DNA of 64,000 nucleotides from a bacterium 0.1xD8-71. Lineage in GTDB: Bacteria; Bacillota; Clostridia; Lachnospirales; Lachnospiraceae. The stretch spans positions 1 to 64,000 of the forward strand of contig RAYR01000018.1 in NCBI GenBank assembly GCA_003612405.1, given 5' to 3'. The position numbers and the translations under genes are program-made. Shown in pieces: positions 38,355-42,845 of the stretch. Below the pieces are notes generated by a model, which did no database searches, was not told the origin of the DNA, and was given only the letters and a program-made list of their open reading frames with translations. Numbering within the stretch: position 1 is the first letter of the stretch; each line of letters starts with the position of its first letter.

Positions 38355-38525
38355 TTAACCCTGAGAGATAGAACCTGTCGGGCAAACACCTGCACAAGAT
38401 CCGCAATCGATGCACTTAGCAGGGTCGATCTCGAATTTGCCATCTCCCATGCTGATAGCGCCTACCGGGCACTGAGCCTCACATGCGCCGCATGATACAC
38501 AAGCGTCACTAATTACATATGCCAT
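38355..38525 (-). CDS. 2[4Fe-4S] ferredoxin
   Basis: 56-aa clostridial-type ferredoxin with two CxxCxxCxxxCP clusters: CVSCGACEAQCPVGAI and CIDCGSCAGVCPTGSI. A low-potential electron carrier for PFOR, hydrogenase or radical-SAM enzymes. AGGAGG lies upstream of the ATG at 38525. It has its own promoter and so is probably a separate unit from pflA, though it is a plausible electron donor to that radical-SAM enzyme. Confidence 0.95.
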   Translation of the reverse strand: MAYVISDACVSCGACEAQCPVGAISMGDGKFEIDPAKCIDCGSCAGVCPTGSISQG

Positions 38526-38560
38526 AACAATTATCCTCCTTGAAAATAAGACTGTTTGAA

Positions 38561-38621
38561 ATTGATATATATTTATCAATTACCTACATCTTATTCTAAT
38601 ATAAATGCAATAAATATACAA
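38561..38621 (-). promoter_or_regulatory. Ferredoxin promoter and palindromic leader
   Basis: On the minus strand: -35 TTGTAT (38616-38621), 17-nt spacer, -10 TAGAAT (38593-38598). Downstream, within the leader, AATTGATA and TATCAATT (about 38561-38582) form a perfect 8-bp inverted repeat with an AT loop, an operator or mRNA hairpin. Confidence 0.65.
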
Positions 38622-38668: not shown

Positions 38669-39445
38669 CTACTCCTCGTGATGGTTCTTTATGCCAAGCT
38701 CCTCACGGCGTTTGCGGATACCGCCCAGAATGACTTTCTTTTTCTCTACCAGTTTATCCTTATCCATTTGCGGAACACCGGCAAGTTTGTATTTCATACC
38801 CAGTTTCTCATACTTCGATTCACCCATGGTGTGATAAGGAAGCGCGTCAAGGGCCTTTAAGTTGGTGAAGGCACCGATAAAATATCCCAGCTGGTAGAGG
38901 TATTTGTCATCATCTGTAATTCCCGGAACAATAACATGGCGAATCCACATATCAACCTGCTTCTCGTTCAGATATTCGGCAAAGGCCAGGATTCCCTCAT
39001 TGGGCTGAGAAGTAAGCTCCTTGTGCTTTTCCGGATCGATATGTTTGATATCAAGCATGACCAGATCTGTTAAGGTCATCAGCTTATCCAGTTTGGCAAG
39101 CCATTCGGGATTGGCATTTTTCTTGTATGCGATACCAGAGGAATCAATACAGGTATGCACGTTATTAGCCTTGGCGATGGTGAACAGGTCAATTAGAAAA
39201 TCTACCTGCATCAGAGGTTCTCCGCCGGTGACGGTAATGCCGCCGCCTTTGTAAAATGCCTCATTCCGTTTGTATTGTTCAAAAATATATTCCGGCTCCA
39301 TCAGTGTGCCGCCGTTCATTTCCCAGGTATCGGGATTATGACAGTAGGCACAACGCATAGGACATCCCTGGACAAAGACCACAAAACGCGTTCCGGGACC
39401 GTCTACGGTGCCAAAGCTCTCTAAAGAATGTATTCTGCCCTGCAT
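38669..39445 (-). CDS. pflA: Pyruvate formate-lyase activating enzyme
   Basis: 258-aa radical-SAM enzyme that installs the glycyl radical on pyruvate formate-lyase. The [4Fe-4S]/SAM motif is CPMRCAYCHNP (CxxxCxxC) near residue 30, preceded by the family's FGTVDGPGTRFVVF; GGEPLMQ and DLVMLDIKHID follow. Start ATG at 39445 with AGGCAGG upstream. It lies downstream of the split PFL genes but behind a terminator (39528-39565), so it probably has its own start site; TATACT is present about 40 nt before the gene. Its substrate glycine here is on the separate 80-aa protein. Confidence 0.95.
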   Translation of the reverse strand: MQGRIHSLESFGTVDGPGTRFVVFVQGCPMRCAYCHNPDTWEMNGGTLMEPEYIFEQYKRNEAFYKGGGITVTGGEPLMQVDFLIDLFTIAKANNVHTCIDSSGIAYKKNANPEWLAKLDKLMTLTDLVMLDIKHIDPEKHKELTSQPNEGILAFAEYLNEKQVDMWIRHVIVPGITDDDKYLYQLGYFIGAFTNLKALDALPYHTMGESKYEKLGMKYKLAGVPQMDKDKLVEKKKVILGGIRKRREELGIKNHHEE

Positions 39446-39527
39446 AATTATAACCTGCCTTTCTATCCATGATAACAATAGTATACTCTTTATAAAGACA
39501 AAAAACCAGACAGTTTGTAATTTTCAT

Positions 39528-39565
39528 AGAAAAAGGAGCCAACCGGAAGTCCGGTCAGCCCCTTA
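39528..39565 (-). terminator. Rho-independent terminator of the split PFL operon
   Basis: On the minus strand: AAGGGGCTGACCGG pairs (one bulge, two mismatches) with CCGGTTGGCTCCTT, loop ACTT, followed by a T-run. It separates the PFL genes from pflA. Confidence 0.8.
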
Positions 39566-39643: not shown

Positions 39644-39886
39644 TTAAACACTCTCATGGAATGTACGAGAGATAACGTCTGCCTGCTGTTCCGGTGTTAA
39701 CTTGATGAAGTTAACTGCATAACCGGATACGCGGATTGTCAACTGAGGATAGTTCTCAGGATGCTTCTGAGCATCTAATAATGTATCTCTGTTGAGTACG
39801 TTAACGTTAAGGTGATGGCCGCCTTTTGTTGCATAACCATCTAATAAAGAAACTAAGTTATCTACCTGAGCATTTGCTGCTGCCAT
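39644..39886 (-). CDS. Separate glycyl-radical subunit of pyruvate formate-lyase
   Basis: 80-aa protein equal to the C-terminal glycyl-radical domain of [12 protein letters not shown] near residue 10, [26 protein letters not shown] with the radical Gly at position 55, and a final helix [11 protein letters not shown]. It starts where the large PFL protein (40258-42297) stops, so together they restore a full enzyme (679 + 80 residues). It has its own AGGAGG site and ATG. It resembles GrcA/YfiD 'spare parts', but here the partner has no radical domain of its own, so it should be an essential subunit (inference). Hairpins flank it on both sides. Confidence 0.9.
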
Positions 39887-39921
39887 TGTTTTGTCCTCCT
39901 ATAATATAATTTGGTTATGGT

Positions 39922-39969
39922 ATTGAGCCATACACTCGTGAGCGCGTTGCTTCGCAACTATGGCTCAAT
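39922..39969 (-). other. Three-way-junction-like hairpin between small PFL genes
   Basis: An 11-bp perfect outer stem (39922-39932 with 39959-39969) encloses two small hairpins (CTC-GT-GAG and GTTGC-TTC-GCAAC). It starts 2 nt after the stop codon of the 66-aa gene on the minus strand. Not followed by a T-run, so probably a stability or processing element. Confidence 0.7.
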
Positions 39970-39970
39970 G

Positions 39971-40171
39971 CTATTTAAAATCATCCAGTCCCTCGTGGAG
40001 AGTTGGAACACTACAGGCCAATGGGGTACGGGAGCAATCCGTGCACCCCATGGTCTGAATATTTGATTCCTGCGCTTTGTCATCGACTTCCACATTCACA
40101 TGTCCGACACCCTGTGCCATCCCGGAATCCATCATCTTAACAAAGTCATCAATCATTTTTTTGTCATCCAT
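39971..40171 (-). CDS. 66-aa Cys-rich protein, partial homologue of the PFL radical subunit
   Basis: Not a known family to me. Residues 10-29 (FVKMMDSGMAQGVGHVNVEV) align without gaps to residues 11-30 of the radical subunit, sharing V, D, G, H, N, V, V. In place of the radical loop there is a tail with CTDCSRTPLAC (CxxC-x6-C), which could bind metal or form disulfides. AGGAGG 8 nt before ATG shows that it is translated. It lies between the two PFL pieces in the same operon. Possible roles: docking cap, assembly or protection factor for the large subunit (inference). Confidence 0.7.
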   Translation of the reverse strand: MDDKKMIDDFVKMMDSGMAQGVGHVNVEVDDKAQESNIQTMGCTDCSRTPLACSVPTLHEGLDDFK

Positions 40172-40196
40172 ATATTATTTCCTCCTTTTATATCTC

Positions 40197-40255
40197 TGGA
40201 AAAAAATCTGCCATATATGGATTTTTTTCCGATCAACGAAAAATATTCATTGATC
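40197..40255 (-). other. Two hairpins after the large PFL gene
   Basis: GATCAA/TTGATC (40231-40255), beginning 2 nt after the stop codon, then a longer AT-rich hairpin with GGAAAAAAAT/ATTTTTTTCC arms and an inner CCATA/TATGG stem (about 40197-40230). They precede the ribosome-binding site of the 66-aa gene. Possible attenuator or processing site. Confidence 0.65.
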
Positions 40256-40257
40256 AC

Positions 40258-42297
40258 TTATTTATTAAGATCCACTTCGATATCGCCTGCAAATACCTGA
40301 TCTTCTTTACCAAGAGCACCAGGAATGATGGTGAAGGTATTGGAGATACCATCCTGTGCATCGTTGAACGGAAGTTTGGATACAGAAGATAAGGAAGCAA
40401 CTGCACCATGAGTATCGCGTCCATGCATCGGGTTAGCACCAGGAGCAAAAGGCTGACCTTTCTTACGTCCGTCAGGGGTGTTACCTGTAGCCTTACCGTA
40501 AGTTACGTTGGAAGTAATGGTAAGGATGGAAGTTGTCGGAACACCTTCTCTGTAGGTGTGATGTCTTCTGATGGCGGTCATGAACTTGTGCACAATCTCC
40601 TGAGCAATTTCATCTACGCGGTCATCGTCGTTACCATATTTCGGGAACTCACCGGTGGTCTTGAAGTCAACGATGATACCGTCTTCGTCTCTGATAGGCT
40701 CAACCTTGGCATACTTGATAGCGGACAGGGAGTCAGCTACGATGGAAAGGCCTGCAACACCAGTTGCGAAGTAACGTTTAACGTTTCTGTCATGAAGAGC
40801 CATCTCTGCTCTCTCATAGCAGTATTTGTCATGCATGTAGTGGATAATGTTCAATGTGTTTACATATACATCTGCCTGCCACTCTAACATGTCAATAAAT
40901 TTATCCATAACGTCATCGTAATCGAGAACGTCACCGGTAACAGGACGATACTTAGGACCAACCTGTTTCTTGGTAACTTCATCAATACCACCGTTTAAAG
41001 CGTATAACAGACACTTGGCAACGTTAGCACGTGCGCCGAAGAACTGCATTTCTTTACCGATAACCATGGAAGATACGCAGCATGCGATACCGTAGTCATC
41101 ACCATGAGTCACTCTCATCAGATCATCGTTCTCATACTGGATGGAAGAAGTCTGGATGGACATCTTAGCACAGTATTTCTTCCATGCCTCAGGAAGCCTT
41201 GTGGACCAGAGAACTGTTAAGTTGGGCTCCGGAGAAGGTCCTAAGTTGGTTAATGTGTGCAGATAACGGAAGCTCATCTTTGTTACCATCGGACGACCGT
41301 CAACACCAACACCACCGAGAGACTCGGTTACCCATACCGGATCGCCAGCGAAAATCTGGTTGTACTCAGGTGTACGGGCAAATTTGATCAGTCTCAGTTT
41401 CATGATGAAGTGATCAACGAACTCCTGGATCTGCTGCTCTGTGAAGGTACCGTTAGCCAGATCTCTTTCAGCATAGATATCAAGGAAAGTAGATGTACGG
41501 CCAAGGGACATAGCTGCACCGTTCTGTTCTTTTACAGCGCAAAGATATCCAAAATAAGTAGCCTGGATAGCTTCCTGTACGTTAGAAGCGGGTTTGGAGA
41601 TATCGCAGCCATAAGAAGCAGCCATTTCTTTCATCAGTTTCAGAGCAACCATCTGCTCGGAAAGCTCTTCACGAAGACGGATTACATCATCTGTCATAAC
41701 ACGGCCTGTGGAATCCTTCTGATCCTGCTTATCCTCGATCAGTCTGTCGATACCATACAGAGCAACACGCCTGTAGTCGCCAATGATACGGCCACGGCCG
41801 TAAGCATCCGGAAGACCTGTGATGATGTGGGAAGAACGGCAGGCTCTCATCTCTGCATTATATGCATCGAAACAACCTGCATTGTGTGTCTTTCTGTGAG
41901 TGGAGAAGAACTCGCTGATCTCAGGATCAACTTCGTAACCATTGTCGGAACATGCTTTCTCAGCCATTCTGATACCGCCGTAAGGCTGAAGGGAACGCTT
42001 GAAAGGCTTATCGGTCTGGAAGCCTACGATTGTCTCCTTGCTCTTGTCCAGGTAGCCAGGGCCATGGGATGTGATGGTGGAAACCACCTTGGTGTCCATA
42101 TCAAGTACACCGCCAGCCTCACGTTCCTGTTTCTGTAATTCAAGAACCTGTGCCCATAAGTCTTTTGTGTTCTGTGTAGCTTCGGCTAGGAAGGACTCGT
42201 CACCATCATAAGGATGATAGTTCCTCTGGATAAAGTCACGGACATTGACTTCTTTGTCCCACTTACCGCCTACAAAATCTTTCCATTCTGGTCTCAT
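40258..42297 (-). CDS. pflB: Pyruvate formate-lyase large subunit lacking the glycyl-radical domain
   Basis: 679 aa; converts pyruvate and CoA to formate and acetyl-CoA in anaerobic fermentation. It carries the ten-stranded barrel with the catalytic Cys406-Cys407 pair ([11 protein letters not shown]), pyruvate-site residues in PYGGIRMAE and the usual [20 protein letters not shown] near the end. It stops after [20 protein letters not shown], where one-piece PFL (about 760 aa) continues into the glycyl-radical domain. That domain is supplied by 39644-39886. Clean stop, own downstream genes and ribosome-binding sites argue against a simple frameshift. AGGAGG precedes the ATG. Confidence 0.93.
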
Positions 42298-42644
42298 TTT
42301 GAAATAACCTCCTATTTAAAATTTTTTAATAATGTTTTGTGGTTAAAACATGCTTATCCAGTACCAATATTATATGTTATAGGAGCTGAAAGAGTCAATA
42401 CAGCCTTTGTACTTTTTCGCATACAAATGCCAAAAATTAACTTAAAATTTTGTGAAAATTGTATGTAAGAAATAAAGGGCACAAAATATTGATAGTCAGG
42501 ATGCAGAAGGGGAAATTTTCTATATTAAAAAGAGCAAGCGAGAAATTGCTTGCACAACATCTACATTCCTATTATAATCAACATGAATAGATTATGCCTA
42601 TTCTAACAGACTATTATTTGTAATGATAAATTGGAGGTGTAAAT
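42298..42644. promoter_or_regulatory. Divergent control region between pflB and the DUF1858 gene
   Basis: Minus-strand pfl promoter: -35 TTGACT (42393-42398), 18-nt spacer, -10 TATAAT (42369-42374), giving a leader of about 65 nt. The leader has a TGTTTT/AAAACA inverted repeat (about 42335-42352) that could be an operator. Toward the DUF1858 side a GCAAGC/GCTTGC hairpin (about 42533-42552) with a T-run on the minus strand insulates the region. The remaining sequence is AT-rich without genes. Confidence 0.65.
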
Positions 42645-42845
42645 ATGGCACAGATCAGTAAAGATACAACTATCGGTGAAGCGCTCAGGATTAATATGGA
42701 TATTGCCCCGGTTCTTATGGAGATTGGCATGCACTGCTTGGGATGTCCGTCTGCCCAGGGAGAGACTCTGGAAGAGGCTGCAATGGTACATGGTATTGCA
42801 ATTGAGGATTTAATGTCCAGGATTGATGCGGTTACAGGCGCGTAA
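42645..42845 (+). CDS. DUF1858 (hybrid-cluster-associated disulfide) protein
   Basis: 66 aa. [20 protein letters not shown] carries the family's CxxC pair, and [20 protein letters not shown] the preceding helix. The family is found with hybrid-cluster proteins and other anaerobic redox enzymes; the exact role is unknown. GGAGGTG before ATG 42645 and a terminator just after. It is divergent from the PFL operon, so a link to radical-enzyme redox homeostasis is only suggestive. Confidence 0.9.

Follow-up and report, generated by a model that had tools for sequence, protein, structure and literature searches.

Pyruvate formate-lyase (PFL) lies on a central pathway by which many anaerobes convert sugar to acetyl-CoA and formate. 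The enzyme is vulnerable to oxygen, which cleaves it at the radical glycine. The closest described relatives of the locus reported here are the one-piece PflB (TIGR01255; PDB 1H16/2PFL) and the stand-alone glycyl-radical domains GrcA/YfiD (TIGR04365, 6OWR) and GrcA3 (NF038360). A two-chain PFL has also been engineered from E. coli proteins. In that study (PMC8683613), a PFL cut at residue 695, tPFL(1-695), no longer shows detectable binding of YfiD and is activated 32-fold less, and the two-chain enzyme is fully active once activated; the study describes residues 696-733 of E. coli PFL as a recognition element.

The window, by which we mean the whole stretch of 64,000 nucleotides that was analysed, encodes what is very probably a functional PFL that is normally built from separately made pieces, a catalytic and a radical subunit, as judged from sequence comparisons (Table 1). 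Its catalytic domain, Cys-Cys pair and active-site residues are like those of one-piece PflB, and the radical-domain sequence is complete once both chains are added together, but the radical domain is here the product of a separate gene. With GrcA/YfiD and GrcA3 the small subunit has in common that it is a stand-alone glycyl-radical domain. Unlike the setting of GrcA/YfiD, however, the window genome holds no PFL over the TIGR01255 cut-off other than the split one, and hence no one-piece PFL to repair. The engineered tPFL(1-695) and YfiD pair differs from the natural one in being artificial and in being cut 13 residues further on than the natural break, and its weak binding and activation represent a problem that a natural system would have to solve.

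Table 1. Features of the split PFL locus and its surroundings in the window
Feature	Position	Strand	Remarks
PFL catalytic (large) subunit	40258..42297	(-)	679 aa, without glycyl-radical domain
Middle protein	39971..40171	(-)	66-aa ORF, own AGGAGG
Glycyl-radical (small) subunit	39644..39886	(-)	80 aa, RVSGYAV, Gly55
PFL-activating enzyme (radical SAM)	38669..39478	(-)	TIGR02493 289.2 bits, cut-off 231.75
4Fe-4S ferredoxin	38355..38579	(-)	NF058577 88.6 bits, cut-off 65
Sigma-70-like promoter, TTGACT-18-TATAAT	42369..42398	(-)	11/12 consensus matches, upstream of large subunit
Intrinsic-terminator-like site	39533..39564	(-)	14-pair stem, then T run, 3' of small subunit
DUF1858 / hybrid-cluster-protein-associated redox disulfide protein	42645..42845	(+)	66 aa, CxxC, divergent from the PFL operon

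Each of the large, middle and small genes has an ATG start behind an AGGAGG, in agreement with the separate starts and AGGAGG sites that the initial annotation of this DNA had given for the large and small genes, and the gaps between the three genes are 86 and 84 nt. That annotation had described the interval between the large and small genes as a structured spacer; its 371 nt instead contain the 66-aa middle gene. It had also let the large subunit stop at ...EDQVF, after which ten further residues follow, and the N-terminal start that it gave for the small subunit differs from the actual sequence. With a promoter match before the large gene and a terminator-like site after the small one, large, middle and small genes likely form one transcription unit. 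A promoter scan of the stretch returned 14 promoter-like sites versus 9.6 expected from shuffles, which is only somewhat more, so that the site upstream of the large subunit counts as a consensus match only. The activase gene is the next one after the small subunit but lies beyond the terminator-like site, and the ferredoxin is a possible electron donor for the activase. A relative of the divergently encoded DUF1858 protein was found somewhere in the locus at 49 of the 59 named loci with enough upstream sequence.

The large subunit scores 1088.9 bits against TIGR01255 (cut-off 994.2) and matches model positions 2-665 of 744 only; the C-terminal glycyl-radical domain is thus absent from this chain and is found in a separate gene, the small subunit covering positions 664-743 of the same model. 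Relative to E. coli PFL (1H16), profile positions 3-670 of the large subunit align to residues 9-682 and residues 9-79 of the small subunit to residues 683-758, which puts the chain break between residues 682 and 683. By alignment, the Cys406-Cys407 pair, which the initial annotation had rightly recognised as retained, falls at Cys418-Cys419, and R170, W322 and R423 fall at R176, W333 and R435. These residues are invariant across 35 aligned sequences, the window's included; we take them to be the catalytic cysteines and active-site or substrate residues. The assignment of the 80-aa product as a glycyl-radical subunit with Gly55 as its radical site also holds, as Gly55 falls on E. coli Gly734 and the protein passes the NCBIfam GrcA3 model (NF038360) with 161.2 bits (cut-off 158). 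It matches the GrcA structure 6OWR at E 1.9e-25 and stays under the cut-offs for GrcA (TIGR04365; 100.5 of 170) and GrcA2 (107.6 of 145). In contrast to YfiD, the window's small subunit has just 80 aa and lacks YfiD's N-terminal half, and it carries an N-terminal helix (E. coli 683-692) that is extra to YfiD's structured part; the large subunit for its part lacks the 696-733 element. Median dN/dS values of 0.034 for the large, 0.085 for the middle and 0.059 for the small gene (pairs with dS between 0.1 and 1.2) indicate purifying selection. The AlphaFold2 model of the large subunit, with a mean pLDDT of 40.2, was too poor for use.

The split is not peculiar to this genome. Within a sample of 120 genomes of the family, the window's own among them, 45 have a large subunit devoid of the radical domain with a stand-alone radical gene next to it, and two of these 45 (G085 and G119) are also listed with a one-piece PFL over the cut-off. 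A sample of the class (391 genomes, E <= 1e-42, a threshold that would miss more distant stand-alone genes) gave 25 matches, 23 of them stand-alone and two fused. Six of the stand-alone genes belong to the window's family and 17 to eight other families, which rules out a split confined to one family. In a phylum sample of 398 genomes, few of them from the window's class, just two of the matches at E <= 1e-28 scored over the GrcA3 cut-off, namely the window's small subunit and a second one from its family, and nearly all of the weaker ones fell within PFL-length open frames. Lineage-wide occurrence together with purifying selection rules out a local mutation or frameshift, and the initial annotation was therefore right to see a deliberate separation and no point frameshift. 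Its view that the two-piece form is the normal gene arrangement is likewise borne out by the sole TIGR01255 match over cut-off in the genome, where the one-piece PFL that it proposed to look for is absent by that measure, and by the frequency of the split in the family.

Related strains with an intact fused gene, which had been suggested as a sign of local mutation, do exist, but their positions in a tree do not bear out that reading. A careful tree of 68 large-subunit cores (44 split rows and 24 fused) places all 44 split rows in one clade of 48 rows with support of 100/99; in its labels, G112, with an adjacent middle gene, and G002, whose middle gene is elsewhere, were placed in the rest group. 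Four fused PFLs lie inside this clade, one by itself (G096) and three as one group (G011, G074 and G108), and the other 20 fused rows lie outside it. This pattern is best explained by a single split, in one PFL lineage of the class, followed by at least two re-fusions. The loci concerned are L151 for G096 and L146, L147 and L152 for G074, G011 and G108. A quick tree built from additional rows adds a fifth fused PFL (G827, f158) to the G011 group; in it, one of the 23 stand-alone genes of the class sample (G694, f199) falls outside the main split clade and may represent a separate split. The labels of this quick tree miss the middle gene of several rows (for example G003, G100, G110, G341 and G780), and we draw no group counts from it.

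The third gene of the locus encodes a small protein of composite appearance. In its N-terminal half it shares homology with the beginning of the glycyl-radical domain (PF01228), covering the helix and the GHVNV stretch, and its C-terminal half, CTDCSRTPLACSVPTLHEGLDD, carries the motif CxxC-x6-C; the radical glycine loop RVSGY is absent from the 28 aligned middle proteins. The homology emerges from a profile comparison, in which hhalign pairs residues 1-33 with the beginning of the radical subunit at a probability of 93.5% and E 2.3e-07, at a score of 40.0 versus at most 19.9 in 100 column shuffles. Through the small-subunit alignment, the middle protein reaches E. coli PFL residues up to about 713. 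BLASTP between the middle and small proteins gave no match; for the middle protein, Pfam and NCBIfam gave none over cut-off, PHROG none under E 0.1 (best 0.22), and the PDB none that was credible, with one chance-like hit at E 0.24. An AlphaFold2 model of the middle protein alone was poor, with a mean pLDDT of 54.9. A spurious or decaying reading frame was ruled out by its median dN/dS of 0.085, and the most constrained parts of the protein are its Cys half (pN/pS 0.10) and its N-terminal half (0.13), the linker standing at 0.39.

Relatives of the middle protein at E <= 0.01 were found in 31 of the 120 family genomes. One of these matches (G102, E 0.0067, inside a 406-aa frame) is probably due to chance, and another comes from a genome that is 67% complete and in which no PFL was seen (G006). 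A scan of GTDB species genomes yielded 496 pattern matches, of which 452 encode middle-protein relatives; according to the record labels these come mostly from Lachnospiraceae, several of them with names of animal-gut samples, and a few come from other groups. In the best 80 loci of the 452, the large subunit lies upstream of the middle gene in every case (some cut by a contig end) and the small subunit downstream in 79, the exception being at a contig end, and all 80 of these close loci have the complete CxxC-x6-C. A more diverse set of 28 middle proteins shows near-invariance at the second and third Cys alone, and the frames of G012 and G026 stop directly after the CxxC. At L083 (G002:C64) the middle gene stands apart from the pfl operon; inspection by eye places it next to one that encodes an ATPase-like protein.

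Split loci that lack the middle gene often carry cysteines elsewhere. Considering all 65 split loci, 35 have a middle protein (one of them off-operon), 25 have a large subunit with a Cys-bearing tail, and five have neither. The first 46 of these comprise 29 with the middle gene between the large and small genes, one (G002) with it elsewhere, and 16 with a Cys tail instead, defined as a large-subunit end with at least two Cys. Where the middle gene is adjacent (29 loci), the large-subunit tail never contains a Cys; middle gene and Cys tail are mutually exclusive. The remaining 19 loci, from the class sample, divide into five with the middle gene, nine with a Cys tail (in one of which, G706, the large gene is broken) and five with neither. 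A strict motif of the ACxxPTL type occurs in 13 of the 24 Cys-bearing tails without a middle gene, versus 32 of 24000 shuffled tails, and in 22 of the 25 middle proteins tested, with three failing to match; the latter count took 25 proteins instead of 29 under a stricter text rule. The other 11 tails miss the strict motif and are not clearly the same element. Among fused PFLs, one of 24 has at least two Cys in its linker, namely G096, and its three-Cys linker is likely a relic. Middle-gene and Cys-tail forms are interspersed in the careful tree, so that the two were probably swapped several times; a deletion that removed both the stop and the radical-like half would convert a middle gene into a tail. 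The five loci with neither form imply that the element is not essential everywhere, and in some lineages the large and small proteins may well manage on their own. Two loci without any Cys element, L259 and L260 (G859 and G756), have a split PFL in which the called frames of the large and small genes overlap, by 38 and 4 nt respectively.

The pieces most likely work together as follows. The large subunit provides the barrel together with the Cys-Cys pair, the activase places the glycyl radical on the 80-aa subunit, and this subunit docks on the large subunit where one-piece PFL has its C-terminal domain. The middle protein may have originated as a copy of the radical domain's first half that became detached and took on a new role; it would sit on the empty large subunit by means of its helix and strand copy, and its thiol motif may guard the site or help to recruit or license the radical subunit. 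Such a role in docking and as a thiol gate on the large subunit is one that we advance tentatively from the sequence relationships; what points to it as a candidate holder or loader of the site is that the middle protein has a copy of the anchoring helix and strand, with thiols in place of the glycine loop. If the Cys motif is the active part of the protein, this would explain why the motif alone survives as a tail. Extending this line of thought, PFL in these bacteria could be a three-protein enzyme, composed of a barrel, an exchangeable radical cartridge and a third protein that plugs or primes the empty site and gates loading, a reading that we consider possible but somewhat less likely than not. 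The third protein would then go back to a duplicate of the radical domain in which the glycine was lost and conserved thiols were acquired, and it would be the trans-acting counterpart of the recognition element proposed for E. coli PFL after cleavage by oxygen, its thiol part being fused to the catalytic subunit in several lineages. The extra N-terminal helix of the small subunit means, on the other hand, that the radical subunit may bind without help, this helix possibly being anchor enough.

Several other explanations have to be weighed. The small protein falls into an NCBI family that is named autonomous glycyl radical cofactor GrcA3, and one could accordingly see in it an ordinary GrcA spare for another PFL, the large gene being a decayed PFL. 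Since the split PFL is the genome's sole match over the cut-off, the notion of a spare is largely refuted, and a decayed large gene is at odds with its median dN/dS of 0.034, with catalytic residues that are invariant in 35 sequences and with a split that is lineage-wide; we regard this explanation as highly improbable. A more serious rival concerns the middle protein. The two-piece PFL could be right and the middle protein could stand outside the assembly, as a protein that shares the operon, arose from a duplicated radical domain and works with thiols or metal, such as a redox sensor or an activase helper. That its motif is Cys-bearing, that the G002 gene is located on another contig beside other genes, and that five of the 19 class-sample split loci have neither form are all in favor of such a protein. 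What weighs against it is that 13 of the 24 Cys-bearing tails end the large subunit with a similar motif and that gene and tail exclude each other (0 of 29); we consider it possible, if somewhat doubtful.

The remaining alternative is that the split serves the expression ratio and not repair, with radical subunits produced in surplus or as needed and with the small free domain as the substrate of the activase. The initial annotation had proposed cheap exchange of an oxygen-damaged radical subunit, and genes for extra radical subunits bear on both ideas. Outside the operon, such a gene is present in six genomes of the family sample of 120 (G031, G041, G042, G064, G080 and G112), its product being 82-93% identical to the window's subunit, and three of the six lie downstream of a Crp-family regulator on the same strand (L103, L117 and L133). 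The count leaves out G097:C33, which is at a contig start before an activase gene and may belong to a second operon, and the window genome itself has no extra copy over the family cut-off. These off-operon genes are compatible with the swapping of oxygen-damaged subunits, for which they are circumstantial evidence. They fit production of radical subunits in excess as well, as do the small subunit's own AGGAGG and the ending of the unit at a terminator-like site. According to PMC8683613, however, E. coli YfiD in the absence of PFL is a poor activase substrate, which argues against an activase acting on the free domain, and on balance we think it unlikely that the expression ratio is what the split serves.

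A PFL assembled from separate catalytic and radical subunits may already have passed through other hands. The best PDB matches of the large subunit are 38LB and 38LA, both entered as 'Formate acetyltransferase', and the small subunit matches neither. Their sequences differ from that of the window's large subunit. The 739-aa chain of 38LB has two Cys just past the part shared with the large subunit. The quick tree places it within the split clade, but its branch is long and the placement therefore unsure; 38LA ends at LGKED, which may be a natural end or that of a construct. By sequence, both chains look like split-type large subunits. Given these entries and the existence of the GrcA3 family, others have probably met split PFL before. 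No account of a natural split PFL was present among the matches listed in a search of the open-licence PMC literature, with subscription papers and most preprints outside its scope, and within that literature the distribution of the split, the re-fusions, the middle protein and its exchange with the Cys tail appear to be undescribed. The NCBI names 'formate C-acetyltransferase' and 'autonomous glycyl radical cofactor' mask the circumstance that the two products probably form one enzyme. By making the cleavable part a separate small protein, the arrangement amounts to a natural experiment on dismantling and reloading a glycyl-radical enzyme, and the middle protein offers a testable candidate for a step, recruitment, that work on E. 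coli had pointed to without being able to locate it.

Another split glycyl-radical enzyme, unrelated to the PFL, was encountered in G110, G111, G015 and G038 (L242:4110-6626 and L244:3103-6740; also L243 and L241). Its large protein of 745-757 aa is PFL2/glycerol-dehydratase-like, reaching about 590 bits against TIGR01774, below the cut-off of 678.2, with a match that stops at model position 708 of 786. At L242 and L244 the radical domain is encoded by a directly adjacent gene of 86-92 aa, and at L244 an activase is seen by eye alongside, with ABC-transporter genes around. L243 has a similar large protein, and for the radical domain a stand-alone frame is all that was seen at L243 and at L241. 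This enzyme breaks at the same domain boundary as the split PFL.
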